From: Pelosinus propionicus DSM 13327
GTDB taxonomy: Bacteria; Bacillota; Negativicutes; DSM-13327
Assembly: GCF_900114615.1 (NCBI RefSeq)
Contig: NZ_FOTS01000036.1
Span: forward strand, 1-53,894
Length of the DNA: 53,894 nt
Reading direction: 5' to 3'
Numbering within the stretch: position 1 is the stretch's first letter; the number at the start of each line of letters is the position of its first letter. The translations under genes and the position numbers were made by a program. The notes beneath the pieces were generated by a model, which saw only the letters and a program-made list of their open reading frames with translations, made no database searches and was not told the origin of the DNA. This document shows, in pieces, positions 48,345 to 53,703 of this stretch.

Positions 48345-48379
48345 CAAAATTAAAGCTGCTAACAAATTGTTAGCAGCTT
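48345..48379 (-). terminator. Terminator of the first SLH porin
   Basis: Perfect 13-base stem AAGCTGCTAACAA/TTGTTAGCAGCTT (48353-48379), followed by TTTAATTTT on the minus strand. Similar hairpins follow the other two porins. Confidence 0.8.
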
Positions 48380-48395
48380 CTGATTTGAGCAATTC

Positions 48396-49691
48396 TTAGA
48401 AGAAAAACTCAACTTGTGCTTGATAGAATTTGGTCTTATCACTTTCACCATCGGTGGTTGGTTTGAGATCAGCATATTTAACACGAAGAACCGTATTCAA
48501 TACTGGTGTATAGTTAAACCCAATTTCATAGCCTTTACCACCAGCAAGTTGAAAATTATACGCATATGGACCATCAAAAGTAGTTTTTGGGGCTGCCAAC
48601 GCTTCTAAATGACGATAGTTAACCCATGCGCCATAAGATCCGACTTTCTTCTTATCAGCTCCTTTATACCCAAACTCAGCATAATACGCTTTATTTTCAT
48701 CATCTGCATCGGAAGCACCGTAAGATCCTGTTAAGCTCCAGTCTGAAGTTAATTGAGATTTAAATCCTGCTTCCCAAACATTAGCTTTATCGCTGCTGTT
48801 TCCTGTCATAGCACTCAGAATGCCATTATGATCCTTATCTTTAAACTGATAATATCCACCATTCAGTGAAGTAGCCTTAGACGCTGCATATTTCAGCCCC
48901 ACACCAGTAACTTCCACATATGTCATACCAGTAACATCAGAAACATTGCCCCAAACATCTTTATTATTTTCTTTTCCGTAGAATACATTTGCTTTTAATA
49001 CATTACCCATTTCAAAATTAACACCATTTAACGTGCTATCAATCATCAAGCCATTATTCAGAAAATAATCAAATCGACCGATTGTAGCTGTAGTGCCAAG
49101 CACTTGCCCTTTTACATATGCATTATCCATGGTTACTTTATCGTCACCAGTTTCTCCTCTTAGGTTATTAACTGATTGCAAACGACCATAATATGACCAT
49201 TCATTATTAATCTGTCCATCAAGGTGCACACGAGTACGTAGTTTAAGAGAATTTAGTCCGCCAACTGTATCCGTAGCTGCATCATAAGCACGATTAAAAT
49301 TTTCGTATCTCAAACGAGCTTCGCCAGTTACTTTAATCGTGGAAGAGTTCTTTTCCAATTTCGTTACACGAACATTCAAACCTTCTAGTTCATCAGCGAA
49401 TTCTACGGACAATTTGTCGATAGAAGCTTTTTGCTCCGCAGTTGCCTTATCAGAATGAGCCATTGCTTTTGCAACAATTTGAGCCATTTCATAACGGCTG
49501 ATGGTTTTGTCACCTTTGAAAGTTCCGTCGCCATAACCGTCAACAATACCAGCATTCGCTAGTTTTGTTACCGCATCATAGGACCAATGTTTTGCAGGAA
49601 CGTCTGTGAAAGGGTTCGTTGCGGCAAATGATGTACCAGCTACACCAAGTACCATTGCGGCTGCCAAGGATGCTACGAGTTTCTTTTTCAT
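48396..49691 (-). CDS. SLH-domain outer-membrane porin (OmpM type), paralogue 1
   Basis: 431 residues. Signal peptide (about 1-23), one SLH domain (about 25-82) with TNPFTDVPAKHWSYDAV, IVDGYGDGTFKGDKTISRYE, then a short coiled coil (about 85-118, ELEGLNVRVTKLEKNSS) and a barrel of about 300 residues ending in AQVEFFF. In Negativicutes, proteins of this design bind modified peptidoglycan through SLH and span the outer membrane as porins, so tethering it. The first 115 residues are almost identical in all three paralogues, while the barrels differ. SD AAGGAGAG lies before the ATG and can pair with the leader. Confidence 0.93.
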   Translation of the reverse strand: MKKKLVASLAAAMVLGVAGTSFAATNPFTDVPAKHWSYDAVTKLANAGIVDGYGDGTFKGDKTISRYEMAQIVAKAMAHSDKATAEQKASIDKLSVEFADELEGLNVRVTKLEKNSSTIKVTGEARLRYENFNRAYDAATDTVGGLNSLKLRTRVHLDGQINNEWSYYGRLQSVNNLRGETGDDKVTMDNAYVKGQVLGTTATIGRFDYFLNNGLMIDSTLNGVNFEMGNVLKANVFYGKENNKDVWGNVSDVTGMTYVEVTGVGLKYAASKATSLNGGYYQFKDKDHNGILSAMTGNSSDKANVWEAGFKSQLTSDWSLTGSYGASDADDENKAYYAEFGYKGADKKKVGSYGAWVNYRHLEALAAPKTTFDGPYAYNFQLAGGKGYEIGFNYTPVLNTVLRVKYADLKPTTDGESDKTKFYQAQVEFFF

Positions 49692-49728
49692 GTTAAAATC
49701 TCTCCTTAGGTTTTATTTTTTCGTCTTA

Positions 49729-49882
49729 CTATGAACACAACCTAAGAAAGGACGTCTTTGAGTATCCATGTTTCCTCAAGGTTATCCTTACTTAGTGTAT
49801 CGTTCATATCTATTCACTACTGCTAGAAATTATGTTAATAAAAGAATTTTTTATTAACATATTACTAAGCGGTGAAAGACCA
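49729..49882 (-). promoter_or_regulatory. Conserved structured leader of porin 1
   Basis: Nested pairings (plus-strand coordinates): TATGAAC 49730-49736 with GTTCATA 49802-49808; CTAAG 49742-49746 with CTTAG 49791-49795; AAGGA 49748-49752 with TCCTT 49785-49789; TTGAG 49758-49762 with CTCAA 49775-49779. A second hairpin (CACTACTGCT near 49815 with AGCGGTG near 49868) lies upstream in the mRNA. AACCTAAG (49739-49746) can instead pair with CTTAGGTT (49705-49712) at the ribosome-binding site. Very similar sequence precedes porins 2 and 3. It matches no riboswitch I know. Confidence 0.6.
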
Positions 49883-50001
49883 TTAAATGAATTGGTATTT
49901 ACATAAAGTAAAATACTACATATTTTAAATATCCTGTTTTTTGAAATTTCAACTTATATTTAAGAGTTATAGAAAGCATTTAACAATTTATTACATTTTA
50001 A

Positions 50002-50030
50002 ATTTTACACAATAATAAACAATACGTCAA
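50002..50030 (-). promoter_or_regulatory. Promoter of porin 1
   Basis: TTGACG (50030-50025), 17-base spacer, TAAAAT (50007-50002). The spacer starts TAT and ends GTG. Start near 49994, giving a leader of about 300 bases. The rest of the 49883-50000 stretch is AT-rich with no gene. Confidence 0.6.
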
Positions 50031-50173
50031 GGTAATTTTCTGAATAATCTTTATTTTCTGGATTAATAGATTTATCTCATATATTAGTGGTATTTCCACT
50101 TTTCTATCTCCGTATAACATCACACAAGCACCAAGACTTCCACCCAAGAGTAAACAATCATGCTTGATATTCC

Positions 50174-50210
50174 ATAAAAAAACAGCCGCTAACAAATTGC
50201 TAGCGGCTGT
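50174..50210 (-). terminator. Terminator of the second SLH porin
   Basis: ACAGCCGCTA (50182-50191) with TAGCGGCTGT (50201-50210), followed by TTTTTTT on the minus strand, 16 bases past the stop. Confidence 0.85.
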
Positions 50211-50226
50211 AACTTGTGAGTATTTC

Positions 50227-51504
50227 TTAGAAGAAGAACTCAACTTGTGCTTGATAGAACTTAGTTTTGAGAGCATTTGAAGAATCATTTGCAGTTGCTT
50301 TAACATTGGCGTATTTAAAGCCAAGTACTGTATTTAACTTTGGAGTATAGTTAAATCCTACTTCATAACCTTTAGCACCAAGAGGATAAAGACTGTCAAT
50401 GCCGTCATAATAGCTTTGACCACCTACTGTATATGCTCCATCAAATGTAGTTCTAGGAGCTGCAAACCCTTCTATGTTACGATAATTAACCCACGCCCCA
50501 TAAGAACCTACTTTTGCCTTATCTGCACCTTTATAGCCCAATTGAGCATAGTATGCAGTATTTTCAACATCAATGTCAGATTCGCCATAAGATCCAGCCA
50601 AATTCCAATTAGAATTTAACTGAGTTTTAAAGCCAGCTTCCCAGAAGTCTGTAGTATCTGTGTTATAAATATCTTTAACTTTGTAGTAACCACCATTAAT
50701 GCTTGTAGCCTTTGAAGTTGCATAATCTAATGTTAAGCCAGTTACTTCTGGATGCTCTGCATTTGACCAATTAGAACTACCATTAGCTAAAATATCTTGA
50801 TGATTGTCTTTACCATAGAATACGTTTGCTTTAAGAACATTGCCAAATTCGAGATTAACACCATTGAGTGTACTATCAAACATTAATCCACCATTTGGTA
50901 CGTAGTCAAAGCGACCTACGGTTGCAGTTGCACCAAATAGATTGCCTTTAACATAGGCATTGTCCATAGTCACTTTTCCATCGTCGCCACCACGTAAATT
51001 ATTTTCAGATTGTAAACGACCATAGTATGACCATTGATCATTGATCTGACCATCTAGGTGAATGCGGCTACGAAGTACTAAGCTATTATCGGAAAAATCA
51101 TCAGCAGTTTGATCTTCATATCTCAAACGAGCTTCACCAGTTACTTTAATCGTGGAAGAATTCTTTTCTAATTTGGTTACACGAACATTCAAACCTTCTA
51201 ATTCTGAAGCAAACTCTACTGATAACTTATCAATAGCTGCCTTTTGTTCAGCAGTTGCTTTATCGGAATGCGCCATTGCTTTTGCAACGATTTGAGCCAT
51301 TTCATAACGGCTAATGGTTTTGTCACCTTTGAAAGTGCCATCGCCATAACCGTCAACAATACCAGCGTTAGCTAGTTTTGTTACTGCATCATAGGACCAA
51401 TGTTTTGCAGGAACGTCTGTGAAAGGGTTGGTTGCAGCGAATGATGTACCAGCTACGCCAAGTACCATTGCAGCTGCTAATGAAGCTACTAATTTCTTTT
51501 TCAT
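50227..51504 (-). CDS. SLH-domain outer-membrane porin (OmpM type), paralogue 2
   Basis: 425 residues, built as paralogue 1: signal peptide, SLH domain (about 25-82), coiled coil (LEGLNVRVTKLEKNSSTIKV) and barrel. Its barrel is the most diverged of the three. The loops around QTADDFSDNS, DNHQDILANGSSNWSN and the GGQSYYDGIDSLYPLG insertion differ in length and charge, and the small CFYG-like NVFYGKDN pattern is kept. Strand ends FKYANVKATAND and AQVEFFF are conserved. Differences in surface loops suggest separate selectivity or phage/antibody exposure. Own promoter, leader and terminator, so monocistronic. Confidence 0.93.
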   Translation of the reverse strand: MKKKLVASLAAAMVLGVAGTSFAATNPFTDVPAKHWSYDAVTKLANAGIVDGYGDGTFKGDKTISRYEMAQIVAKAMAHSDKATAEQKAAIDKLSVEFASELEGLNVRVTKLEKNSSTIKVTGEARLRYEDQTADDFSDNSLVLRSRIHLDGQINDQWSYYGRLQSENNLRGGDDGKVTMDNAYVKGNLFGATATVGRFDYVPNGGLMFDSTLNGVNLEFGNVLKANVFYGKDNHQDILANGSSNWSNAEHPEVTGLTLDYATSKATSINGGYYKVKDIYNTDTTDFWEAGFKTQLNSNWNLAGSYGESDIDVENTAYYAQLGYKGADKAKVGSYGAWVNYRNIEGFAAPRTTFDGAYTVGGQSYYDGIDSLYPLGAKGYEVGFNYTPKLNTVLGFKYANVKATANDSSNALKTKFYQAQVEFFF

Positions 51505-51539
51505 GTTAAAATCTCTCCTTAGGTTTTATTTTTGTCTTA

Positions 51540-51687
51540 CTATGAACTCCACCTAAGAAAGGACATCTCTGAGTGTCCATGTTCCCTCAAGGTTATCCTT
51601 ACAAGGTTTATTGTTCATATTTATTCTACTACTTAAACGATCTATATAGATCAATTTACCTCTAGTTATATTTAAGTAGCGAAGACC
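51540..51687 (-). promoter_or_regulatory. Conserved structured leader of porin 2
   Basis: Same design as 49729-49882. TATGAAC (51541-51547) pairs with GTTCATA (51613-51619). The inner CTGAG/CTCAA hairpin carries a G-U change that keeps pairing. ACCTAAG (51551-51557) can pair with CTTAGGT (51518-51524) beside the ribosome-binding site. The upstream hairpin here is CTACTTAAA with TTTAAGTAG, a different sequence with the pairing preserved, which is covariation-like evidence. Confidence 0.6.
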
Positions 51688-51753
51688 ACAATAATTATCA
51701 TATTACCAAAAAGAATCTATTAAGGAAAATTTAACAAATAATTTACCTGTCTA

Positions 51754-51782
51754 ATATTACACAAAAATTCCTAATAAATCAA
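51754..51782 (-). promoter_or_regulatory. Promoter of porin 2
   Basis: TTGATT (51782-51777), 17-base spacer beginning TAT and ending GTG, TAATAT (51759-51754). It aligns with the porin 1 promoter but has a weaker -10, which suggests lower expression. Leader of about 240 bases. Otherwise the AT-rich 51690-51880 stretch shows no gene. Confidence 0.5.
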
Positions 51783-51882
51783 GAAAAATTTGATTTTTCT
51801 TTGAAATGTATTCAATTTTTAAAATATATTATTACTTTATTTTCAATAATACAGGTAATTAAAATATTTTTTCATTAATAGG

Positions 51883-51928
51883 ATATAAAAATCAGAAGCC
51901 GCTAACAAATTTGTTAGCGGCTTCTGAT
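51883..51928 (-). terminator. Terminator of the third SLH porin
   Basis: Perfect 19-base stem (51891-51909 with 51910-51928; core GCCGCTAACAAA/TTTGTTAGCGGC), then TTTTTATA on the minus strand, 12 bases past the stop. Confidence 0.88.
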
Positions 51929-51940
51929 CTCGATCGGTTT

Positions 51941-53212
51941 TTAAAAGAAGAACTCAACTTGTGCTTGATAGAAATCTTGTTTTTCAGTAGGAGCAGTATC
52001 AGCAGTTGGTTTTAAGTTAGCATATTTTACACGAAGAACCGTGTTTAATACAGGGGTATAATTAAAGCCTACTTCATAACCTTTAGCACCATTTTTTAAT
52101 TGACCACGAGAGGTATATGCTCCATCGAAGGTAGTTTTAGGAGCTGCATTTGCTTCTAAATTACGATAGTTAACCCATGCACCATAAGAACCAACTTTCT
52201 TTTTGTCAGCGCCTTTGTAACCAATTTCAGCATAGTATGCTGTGTCTTCAGTATCTGCATCAGATTCACCATAAGAACCACTTAAGCTCCAGTTGGGAGT
52301 GAATTGTGTTTTGAAACCAGCTTCCCAAACTTTCAAGGAATCATCACTAGTAGCGTTGGTTAAATATCCTGAATCATTGTTATCTTTAAACTGATAATAA
52401 CCGCCATTTAAAGTAGTAGCTTTTGAAGCTGCATAACTTAAGCCTAAGCCAGTTACTTCTAGGTAATCAGTCATTACTTTTTTAGAATTACCCCATACAT
52501 CTTTATTATTATCTTTGCCATAGAATGCATTAGCTTTCAATACATTACCAAATTCAAAATTAACACCATTCAAAGTACTATCAATCATTAAACCGTTGTT
52601 TAAGAAGTAATCGAAACGACCGATTGTAGCAGTAGCGCCTGCGATTTGCCCTTTAACAAAAGCATTATCCATGGTTACGTTGGTATCGCCTTCACCTTTT
52701 AAGTTATTTACAGCTTGCAAACGACCATAGTATGACCAGTTGTCATTGATTGTTCCATCAAGATGGATACGAGTACGGAGTTTATAGGAACTATCATGAT
52801 CTGCATATTTATTTGAGTAATCTTCATATCTCAAACGAGCTTCACCACTTACTTTAATGGTGGAAGAATTCTTTTCCAATTTTGTTACACGAACGTTTAA
52901 GCCTTCTAATTCTTCAGCAAATTCTACGGACAGTTTGTCGATAGAAGCCTTTTGTTCAGCAGTTGCTTTGTCGGAATGAGCCATTGCTTTTGCAACGATT
53001 TGTGCCATTTCATAACGGCTGATGGTTTTGTCACCTTTGAAAGTACCATCGCCATAACCATCAACAATACCAGCACTAGCTAGTTTGGTTACTGCATCAT
53101 AGGACCAATGTTTTGCAGGAACGTCTGTGAAAGGATTGGTTGCAGCGAATGATGTACCAGCTACGCCAAGTACCATTGCAGCTGCCAAGGAAGCTACTAA
53201 TTTCTTTTTCAT
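51941..53212 (-). CDS. SLH-domain outer-membrane porin (OmpM type), paralogue 3
   Basis: 423 residues with the same signal peptide, SLH domain, coiled coil and barrel order, ending AQVEFFF. The barrel is closer to paralogue 1 than to 2 (shared MIDSTLNGVNFE, FYGKDNNKDVWGN and NTVLRVKYANLKPT). Its promoter is the best of the three (TTGACT/TATTAT), so it may be the most expressed. SLH motif FTDVPAKHW and the ISRYEMAQ variant of TRAE are intact. Its short plus-strand neighbour is the end of an IS1182-type element. Confidence 0.93.
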   Translation of the reverse strand: MKKKLVASLAAAMVLGVAGTSFAATNPFTDVPAKHWSYDAVTKLASAGIVDGYGDGTFKGDKTISRYEMAQIVAKAMAHSDKATAEQKASIDKLSVEFAEELEGLNVRVTKLEKNSSTIKVSGEARLRYEDYSNKYADHDSSYKLRTRIHLDGTINDNWSYYGRLQAVNNLKGEGDTNVTMDNAFVKGQIAGATATIGRFDYFLNNGLMIDSTLNGVNFEFGNVLKANAFYGKDNNKDVWGNSKKVMTDYLEVTGLGLSYAASKATTLNGGYYQFKDNNDSGYLTNATSDDSLKVWEAGFKTQFTPNWSLSGSYGESDADTEDTAYYAEIGYKGADKKKVGSYGAWVNYRNLEANAAPKTTFDGAYTSRGQLKNGAKGYEVGFNYTPVLNTVLRVKYANLKPTADTAPTEKQDFYQAQVEFFF

Positions 53213-53248
53213 CTTAAATCTCTCCTTAGGTTTTATATTTTTGCCTTG

Positions 53249-53371
53249 CTATGAACTTCACCTAAGAAAGGACGTCTTTGAGTATCCATGTTCCCTCAAG
53301 GTTATCCTTGCCAGGTTCATTGTTCATAATCTATTCACTACTGCTAGAATTTTTCTAAGCAGTGAAAGACC
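53249..53371 (-). promoter_or_regulatory. Conserved structured leader of porin 3
   Basis: TATGAAC (53250-53256) pairs with GTTCATA (53322-53328). The inner AAGGA/TCCTT and TTGAG/CTCAA helices are as in the other copies. ACCTAAG (53260-53266) can pair with CTTAGGT (53225-53231) at the ribosome-binding site. The upstream hairpin CACTACTGCTAGAA / TTCTAAGCAGTG ends at GAAAGACC (53371). Confidence 0.6.
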
Positions 53372-53497: not shown

Positions 53498-53581
53498 GTC
53501 ATTTTCCAATTATTTGCTCCAATATTCATTAGATCCTTTTCTGCAATTTAGCCTCGTTTGACAGAATCAACAAATAAAAAA

Positions 53582-53625
53582 GGAGCTGTCTCAAAATAGG
53601 TTTTTAAAACCTATTTGAGATAGCT
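53582..53625 (-). repeat. IS1182-type terminal sequence with hairpin
   Basis: GGAGCTGTCTCAAAATAGG (53582-53600), the characteristic end of IS1182-family elements, continuing into its near complement AAAACCTATTTGAGATAGCTC. The whole forms a long hairpin at the element edge downstream of the transposase stop. Confidence 0.6.
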
Positions 53626-53703
53626 CTTTCTTTGTATCCCTAACCGAATAGGGTATTTTCTCTTTTTTGCGAATTAAGTGGAGTAAAGTAGGCATAGCAA
53701 AGC

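Follow-up and report, generated by a model that had tools for sequence, protein, structure and literature searches.

Each of the three OmpM-type porin genes in a 53,894-nucleotide (nt) stretch of the Pelosinus propionicus DSM 13327 genome (contig NZ_FOTS01000036.1, hereafter the window) has its own minus-strand leader. Our analysis indicates that this leader is a real, widespread and functional-looking RNA, and probably the rediscovery of a named but unexplained riboswitch candidate, the SLH motif. The element is present in two phyla, before the SLH porins of Negativicutes and Synergistota. Its parts are three helices (P2, P3 and P4), a strand 3′ of P3 that is complementary to the Shine-Dalgarno sequence (anti-SD), and the Shine-Dalgarno sequence (SD) of the porin itself. 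On balance, we lean towards a cis-acting regulator of porin translation that would act by masking the SD.

A conserved leader core precedes the window porins

A preliminary description of this DNA had claimed a near-identical, nested core before each porin within much less conserved AT-rich flanks, and a second, upstream hairpin that keeps its pairing while its sequence changes. All of this was borne out. The core is 79 nt long in each leader, with every named pair present: P2 (TATGAAC/GTTCATA) is the outer stem, P3 (AAGGA/TCCTT) the inner and P4 (TTGAG/CTCAA, with CTCAG in leader B) the apical one, accompanied by the strand CTTAGGT. Alignment of the three leaders showed flanks far less conserved than the core, and the upstream hairpin pairs as GGTCTTTCAC..GTGAATAGA in leaders A and C and as CTACTTAAA/TTTAAGTAG in B. 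The P4 loop comprises 12 nt, with the consensus GGAAAC-RW-GG-NN-AC. CTTAGGT, previously paired inside the hairpin only, also complements the SD region of the porins, ACCTAAGGAG.

Relative to dinucleotide shuffles, folding gave z-scores of -4.55, -1.97 and -2.68 for leaders A, B and C, with 0/200, 6/200 and 3/200 shuffles, respectively, folding as well. The fold of leader B is therefore only modestly unusual. A model named R2, made from 21 long-form leaders (described below) of the window's class only and built without the window sequences, matched leader A at 49691-49831 (E 1.1e-13), leader B at 51504-51652 (E 2.6e-14) and leader C at 53210-53371 (E 6.3e-12). No Rfam family was matched: Rfam 15 gave 0 matches at the gathering score across the whole window and none up to E 10 over the three leaders, and 18 related loci yielded no credible match over their leaders up to E 5. 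An Rfam 'sar' match at 48348-48412 (36.3 bits, cut-off 43) was rejected, as it falls outside the leaders, on the last part of porin A and the hairpin that follows. Phage records contained no DNA resembling leader A.

The leader is widespread in the Negativicutes

A DNA similarity search located the element at 18 places in six of the eight genomes of the genus, with CTAAGGAG directly before the MKK.. porin start in 18/18. A covariance model of these 18 leaders (R1) matched 10/10 genomes of the order and, at E up to 0.05, 140/300 genomes and 58/97 genera of the class; chance would nominally account for about 15/300, the E-values of R1 and R2 being rough. Genome G000 has 13 SLH-porin-like places and seven leaders detected by R1, some of its paralogues having the leader and others not. 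Locus L092 carries a variant loop, ATATTGGAAACAAGGATAACAATAT.

The R1 leader set comprised 71 of the 82 loci L139-L220, after removal of 11 near-duplicates, and 10 loci from the genus or family. From 84 strong matches, 81 were used, one per locus, the second matches in L147, L151 and L155 being left out. The gene start was located for 79 of the 81 leaders, 79-115 nt past the start of the model match, and for neither L184 nor L202. In 4/79 (L146, L174, L185 and L194) the gene behind the leader encodes a signal peptide without an SLH start; in 5/79 the locus ends too early to judge. The four genes look like porin barrels, with weak and partial profile support. L146 matched Porin_4 at E 6.5e-6, just below the cut-off, and a porin subfamily at E 2.1e-4, far below its cut-off; L185 matched the same subfamily at E 5.5e-4, also far below cut-off; L174 and L194 had no porin profile match.

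A protein-picked sample was assembled from the best SLH-porin match per genome in two protein searches. It comprised 21 loci from those genomes beyond the window's family whose porins were most similar (nine genus or family loci, L019-L027, being left out) and 29 loci from genera in which R1 had, for the most part, matched weakly or not at all. Within 230 nt upstream, 40/50 porins (20/21 and 20/29) have the strict loop GNAANNNGGNNAC, compared with 182/10000 shuffled upstream sequences (1.8%). The 29 loci are the more independent part, because the genomes of the other 21 also had R1 matches.

Helices and SD pairing covary

Covariation was examined by exchanging strands between leaders. With leaders anchored on the loop only, P4 stem pairs 2-5 were paired in 280/312 cells of 78 leaders, versus 242 (standard deviation 4.4, maximum 258) with redealt 3′ strands; L195 was dropped from the 78-leader test for its doubtful start. 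The SD and anti-SD of the same leader paired on average at -13.86 kcal/mol over the 78 leaders, versus -11.31 when swapped, and 0/5000 shuffles were as good. Leaders whose SD departs from the consensus behaved alike (n=33; -12.69 own, -9.56 swapped, 0/5000), as did 20 leaders found by protein only (-10.78 and -8.81, 0/5000). For 18 Synergistota leaders the values were -15.28 and -13.83 (3/5000, or 2/5000 for the 14 left after deduplication). The P4 stem signal in Synergistota was weaker (42/5000, and 17/5000 after deduplication).

A long form of the leader, of about 186-209 nt, has first P1 (GATCTNTCAC paired to GTGATAGAT), P1b (strands of AGGGC type and GCCCT type) and a conserved P1c. Next come the near-invariant AAAGGAGGUG and a first anti-SD (anti-SD1, ACCUUAGGU), and then P2, P3 and P4. 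After P4, anti-SD2 (CUUAGG) is joined by an A-rich linker to the SD, CCUAAGGAGG, and the start follows. By comparison, the window leaders are reduced: they retain P1, together with a simple hairpin, but lack P1b, P1c, AAAGGAGGUG and anti-SD1; P1 of leader A is taken as the equivalent of long-form P1. From 27 long-form leaders, 23 were left without near-duplicates, and 21 entered an alignment, A4, after two Synergistota ones were taken out.

In strand swaps of the 21 leaders, P1, P1b, P2, P3, P4, anti-SD1:SD and anti-SD2:SD each gave 0/5000, while mismatched-strand controls gave 1362/5000 and 4806/5000. Pair counts in A4 (two pairs of P1, with P1b, P2, P4 and anti-SD1:SD) showed pairing in 92.6% of 544 cells versus 82.7% (standard deviation 0.8) when shuffled. 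Changes on both sides occurred in 14/26 pairs, and the shuffles scored 0/500 on all five measures. Sliding one partner cut pairing to 17-47%, a comparison that favours the counted structure over the slid versions, since it was drawn on the sequences of the same alignment. Joint changes can be followed in single leaders. The SD CCTATGG of L205 and L236 faces CATAGG in anti-SD1, and in L236 also CCATAGG in anti-SD2 (anti-SD2 of L205 uses several wobble pairs). L167 has the SD CCTAGGG with CTCTAGG and CCTAGG; in L191, L192 and the Synergistota leaders L302 and L304 the SD is GGGGG and both anti-SDs read CCCCC; L175 has TCAAGGAG with CTCCTTGA; and L190 has CCAAAGG with CTTTGG.

The earlier proposal that OmpM-type porin genes carry a structured leader RNA acting in cis is thus upheld by the occurrence of the element across the class, by its placement immediately ahead of porins and by covariation, which only one of the stems examined fails to show. 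Other genomes preserve the pairings through many compensatory changes, and covariation across the class means that local triplication cannot by itself account for the conservation.

In the long form, a near-invariant AAAGGAGGTG (in several, AGAAAGGAGGTG) was noted in L139, L149, L156, L159, L164, L169, L290, L292, L302 and L305. It is fully complementary to the 3′ end of 16S rRNA, GGATCACCTCCTTTCT, this end being seen in L245 and L243 only. AAGGAGGTG occurs in 11/50 class leaders and 14/31 Synergistota leaders versus 21/16200 shuffles. No ATG follows AAAGGAGGUG at the usual distance in the long form.

The leader occurs in a second phylum

The second phylum was reached from L245 ('uncultured Synergistales bacterium'), with G300 as search centre, and was taken as Synergistota. 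SLH porins were found in 99/120 genomes. The strict loop precedes 18/31 Synergistota SLH porins, one per genome, versus 204/6200 shuffles. By eye, ten further leaders of the 31 carry an altered loop, extended by one base or changed in another way; L285, L286 and L296 have neither a strict nor an altered loop.

R2 was applied to 13 Synergistota loci. The best matches were L290 (E 9e-9), L292 (4.3e-7) and L302 (1.4e-6), followed by L305, L304 and L293 at 2.6e-4 to 9.1e-4 and six more at 0.0044 to 0.38, mostly of the hairpin alone; L299 gave no match. Across 41 Synergistota genomes there were 25 R2 matches (E up to 0.1), spread over 20 of the genomes. Of these, 18, including the ten best, lie at most 65 nt upstream of an SLH porin, and the other seven (E 0.0036 and weaker) have no SLH porin beside the locus.

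Two controls were used. Genomes of other groups gave 0/6 matches, a weak control with no positive genome among them. In the Clostridia control class, R2 matched 15/148 genomes at E up to 0.01, the best at 3.1e-4, and 12 loci of these 15 matches showed no conserved loop and no SLH porin. R2 matches weaker than about 1e-4 therefore cannot stand on their E-value. Weak R2 matches are thus noise, whereas their agreement in position with SLH porins in Synergistota is not; the case for that phylum rests on position and loop. Three of the 12 Clostridia loci (L334, L335 and L339) lie beside the same gene pair in different genomes, and may mark an unrelated recurring feature.

Features of the window

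Positions of the porins and leader parts are collected in Table 1. Porin C matched PDB 8bys, a solved SLH porin and its closest solved relative, over its whole length (query residues 1-423, E 2.5e-55). A hairpin of the type CCGCTAACAA..TTGTTAGCGG lies behind each porin, at about 48350-48380, 50182-50210 and 51893-51925, and the three genes are therefore probably separate transcripts. The hairpin behind porin B was listed as terminator-like by the scan. Beyond porin C, a long near-perfect inverted repeat, GAGCTGTCTCAAAATAGGTTTT / AAAACCTATTTGAGATAGCTC, spans 53573-53636.

Table 1. Porin genes and leader elements in the window
Feature	Position	Strand	Details
Porin A, SLH	48396-49691	-	Pfam SLH E 6e-14
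Porin B, SLH	50227-51504	-	Pfam SLH E 5e-14
Porin C, SLH domain and barrel	51941-53212	-	Pfam SLH E 1.1e-14
Core P2-P3-P4, leader A	49730-49808	-	79 nt
P4 apical hairpin, leader A	49758-49779	-	Conserved loop 49763-49774
Anti-SD strand CTTAGGT, leader A	49740-49746	-	
SD region AAACCTAAGGAGAG, porin A	49700-49713	-	Complementary to leader A anti-SD
P1 reduced form, leader A	49809-49881	-	5′ strand 49865-49881, 3′ strand 49809-49824, hairpin insert
Core P2-P3-P4, leader B	51541-51619	-	P4 51569-51590; anti-SD 51551-51557; SD region 51513-51526
Upstream hairpin, leader B	51629-51679	-	CTACTTAAA 51671-51679 / TTTAAGTAG 51629-51637
Core P2-P3-P4, leader C	53250-53328	-	P4 53278-53299; anti-SD 53260-53266; SD region 53220-53233
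P1, leader C	53330-53371	-	5′ strand 53355-53371, 3′ strand 53330-53345

Possible promoters were also noted. Sigma-A-like sites precede porin A (50030-50002) and porin C (53497-53469), at a frequency no higher than chance. A pattern shaped like the sigma-H promoter consensus, [GA][CA]AGGA[AG]-N13..18-GAAT, lies upstream of the element in 27/79 leaders versus 21/3950 shuffles, mostly as GCAGGAAT..TAGAAT (for example in L149, L159 and L143). None of the three window leaders has it.

Discussion

Proposed mechanism

The data lead us to prefer, by some way short of certainty, translational control of outer-membrane porins in cis. The anti-SD 3′ of P3 (CTTAGGT in the window) would pair with the porin's own SD, CCTAAGGAG, hiding the ribosome landing site. 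Because P2 closes between the two strands, this pairing would be a pseudoknot. In a competing state, the P2/P3 hairpin would hold the anti-SD (by ACCU/AGGU or CTAAG/CTTAG in the window leaders) and keep it from the SD. The P4 loop, almost fixed in sequence on a variable stem, would be the likely docking site of a signal, and binding there may open or close the SD masking. The signal is most likely a trans-acting RNA-binding protein, followed by a small RNA (sRNA) or a small molecule; a protein is favoured because the shortest forms keep little beyond P4, anti-SD and SD. Sequence comparison established the helices, the complementarity of SD and anti-SD and the association with the genes. That the pairing forms in the cell and represses, and that something binds P4, is what we infer.

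SAM-II and preQ1 types are translational riboswitches with an SD-sequestering pseudoknot. The element resembles them in that a loop anti-SD would pair with the downstream SD as a pseudoknot, although it has no Rfam sequence match. A leader bound by CsrA, whose motif is a GGA displayed in a hairpin loop, is a possible but not a favoured reading. P4 loops mostly carry AGGA or GGA, and variants include GGCAAC, GGTAAC, TGGCC and TGGCA, with no GGA in the near-matches L272 and L282.

Several observations weigh against SD masking, or against the strength of the evidence for it. In nested folding, which scores no pseudoknots, the mean unpaired probability of the SD was 0.37 in the whole leader, 0.41 in the last 28 nt alone and 0.43 in the shuffled leader. 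Mean SD pairing to the anti-SD zone was 0.23 overall, with values close to 0 for the window leaders. The effect is small partly because anti-SD:SD is a pseudoknot when P2 is formed. Minimum-energy folds of leaders A and C keep the anti-SD in the hairpin and pair the SD end with the leader 5′ end GGUCUUUC, which would possibly mask the SD too. P1c shows no covariation (851/5000), and anti-SD1:SD changes on both sides in just 1/7 aligned pairs, with L191 and L192 misfitting A4 there. Among the 33 leaders with non-consensus SD, L165, L168, L193 and L209 pair more weakly than their own median swap. The strict loop is missing in 10/50 protein-picked leaders (L241, L251, L255, L257, L262, L271, L272, L275, L276 and L277), L272 and L277 having near-matches by eye. 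R1 scores SD pairing, so leaders found by R1 are partly selected for it, a bias answered by the protein-only set (n=20). Finally, relatedness can inflate every swap and shuffle test.

Alternative explanations

The near-fixed P4 loop may also be read as the target of a conserved sRNA that pairs with GGAAAC and alters porin translation. Porin mRNAs are classical sRNA targets, MicA/RybB-type sRNAs altering porin translation in enterics, and the loop sequence is kept across two phyla. However, loop positions 6-7 (for example AT, AA, GT, GA, AC or GC) and 10-11 vary. An extended duplex could absorb such variation only if the sRNA matched it, and we regard this explanation as unlikely.

The strong folding, most pronounced in leader A, would also suit a stability element, in which the structured leader shields an abundant porin message from decay and SD complementarity is secondary. 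The Escherichia coli ompA leader protects its message from decay, and porins are abundant proteins. Such a role leaves the joint change of anti-SD and SD and the fixed P4 loop sequence unexplained, and appears improbable.

Control of the porin by translation of a small upstream frame, begun at an ATG within the P4 loop and reading MDTQ.. in the genus, is far-fetched. Many genus leaders do have GAGG followed by ATG GAY ACT CAR with third positions varying as if synonymous, and the loop triplet is ATG in 46/79 leaders, GTG in 18/79 and TTG in 3/79. It is AAG in 10/79, however, and missing in 2/79; more leaders have AAG, ACG, GAG, CAG or GCG, Synergistota mostly have AAG or GAG, and in L017 the ATG is followed by TAG at once. 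A conserved upstream reading frame, convincing in the genus, is therefore ruled out generally by loops without a start codon. In most of L001-L016, the loop ATG after GAGG opens a small MDTQ.. frame that could still be translated there.

There are two further readings. One is a metabolite or ion riboswitch, in which P4, with the P1/P1b domain in the long form, would be the aptamer and a ligand would shift the anti-SD/SD balance. The large covarying architecture with invariant unpaired stretches is consistent with this; conserved unpaired residues and a putative expression platform, as expected of a riboswitch, were found by comparison only. The published SLH motif was also put forward as a riboswitch candidate (PMC6429828). 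Yet many leaders lack the entire P1b domain and keep a short hairpin, and porin genes offer no metabolic pathway that would hint at a ligand. We therefore give a riboswitch a minor, though appreciable, chance. The other reading, which is speculative and to be doubted, is that the long form gauges ribosome supply: AAAGGAGGUG, fully complementary to the 16S rRNA 3′ end, would capture free 30S subunits and so decide which anti-SD masks the SD, and one ancient element predating the split of the two phyla, both of which have outer membranes, would set porin translation in both.

Relation to the SLH motif and significance

The preliminary description had called the leader undescribed, with no known riboswitch class of this layout. 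This is doubtful, because the SLH motif has the same taxa and the same genes. The motif is a riboswitch candidate from Thermovirga lienii (Synergistota), described by Stav et al. 2019 (BMC Microbiol 19:66, PMC6429828). Its 80 published examples come from Synergistaceae, Clostridia and Negativicutes; about 60% of them lie upstream of SLH-domain genes and the rest before genes of unknown function. On these agreeing taxa and genes, the porin leader very probably belongs to the SLH motif class. Both occur in Synergistota and Negativicutes and upstream of SLH-domain genes, the element also preceding a few porin-like genes without SLH. The 80 published examples compare with R1 matches in 140 of the 300 class genomes. 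The consulted passages mention no SD/anti-SD pairing, whereas this pairing covaries in the element. Relative to that portion of the text, the breadth, the two covarying anti-SDs and the occurrence before genes without an SLH domain are new.

The ldh2 and gltD motifs are likewise candidate cis-regulatory RNAs of Negativicutes or their orders; they precede malate/L-lactate dehydrogenase and gltD genes (PMC8632094), whereas the element precedes porins. Within the portion of the open-licence literature covered, no description of the leader other than PMC6429828 was found. OmpM anchors the outer membrane to the cell wall, and in Veillonella it serves as the general diffusion pore (PMC10628300); a term search of the main text of that paper returned no passage on control of the OmpM gene. 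A leader common to many paralogues, many genera and a second phylum would offer a single handle on OmpM control. The orphan riboswitch candidate gains a much larger alignment, a testable output in the proposed masking of the SD, and more clearly defined porin targets.

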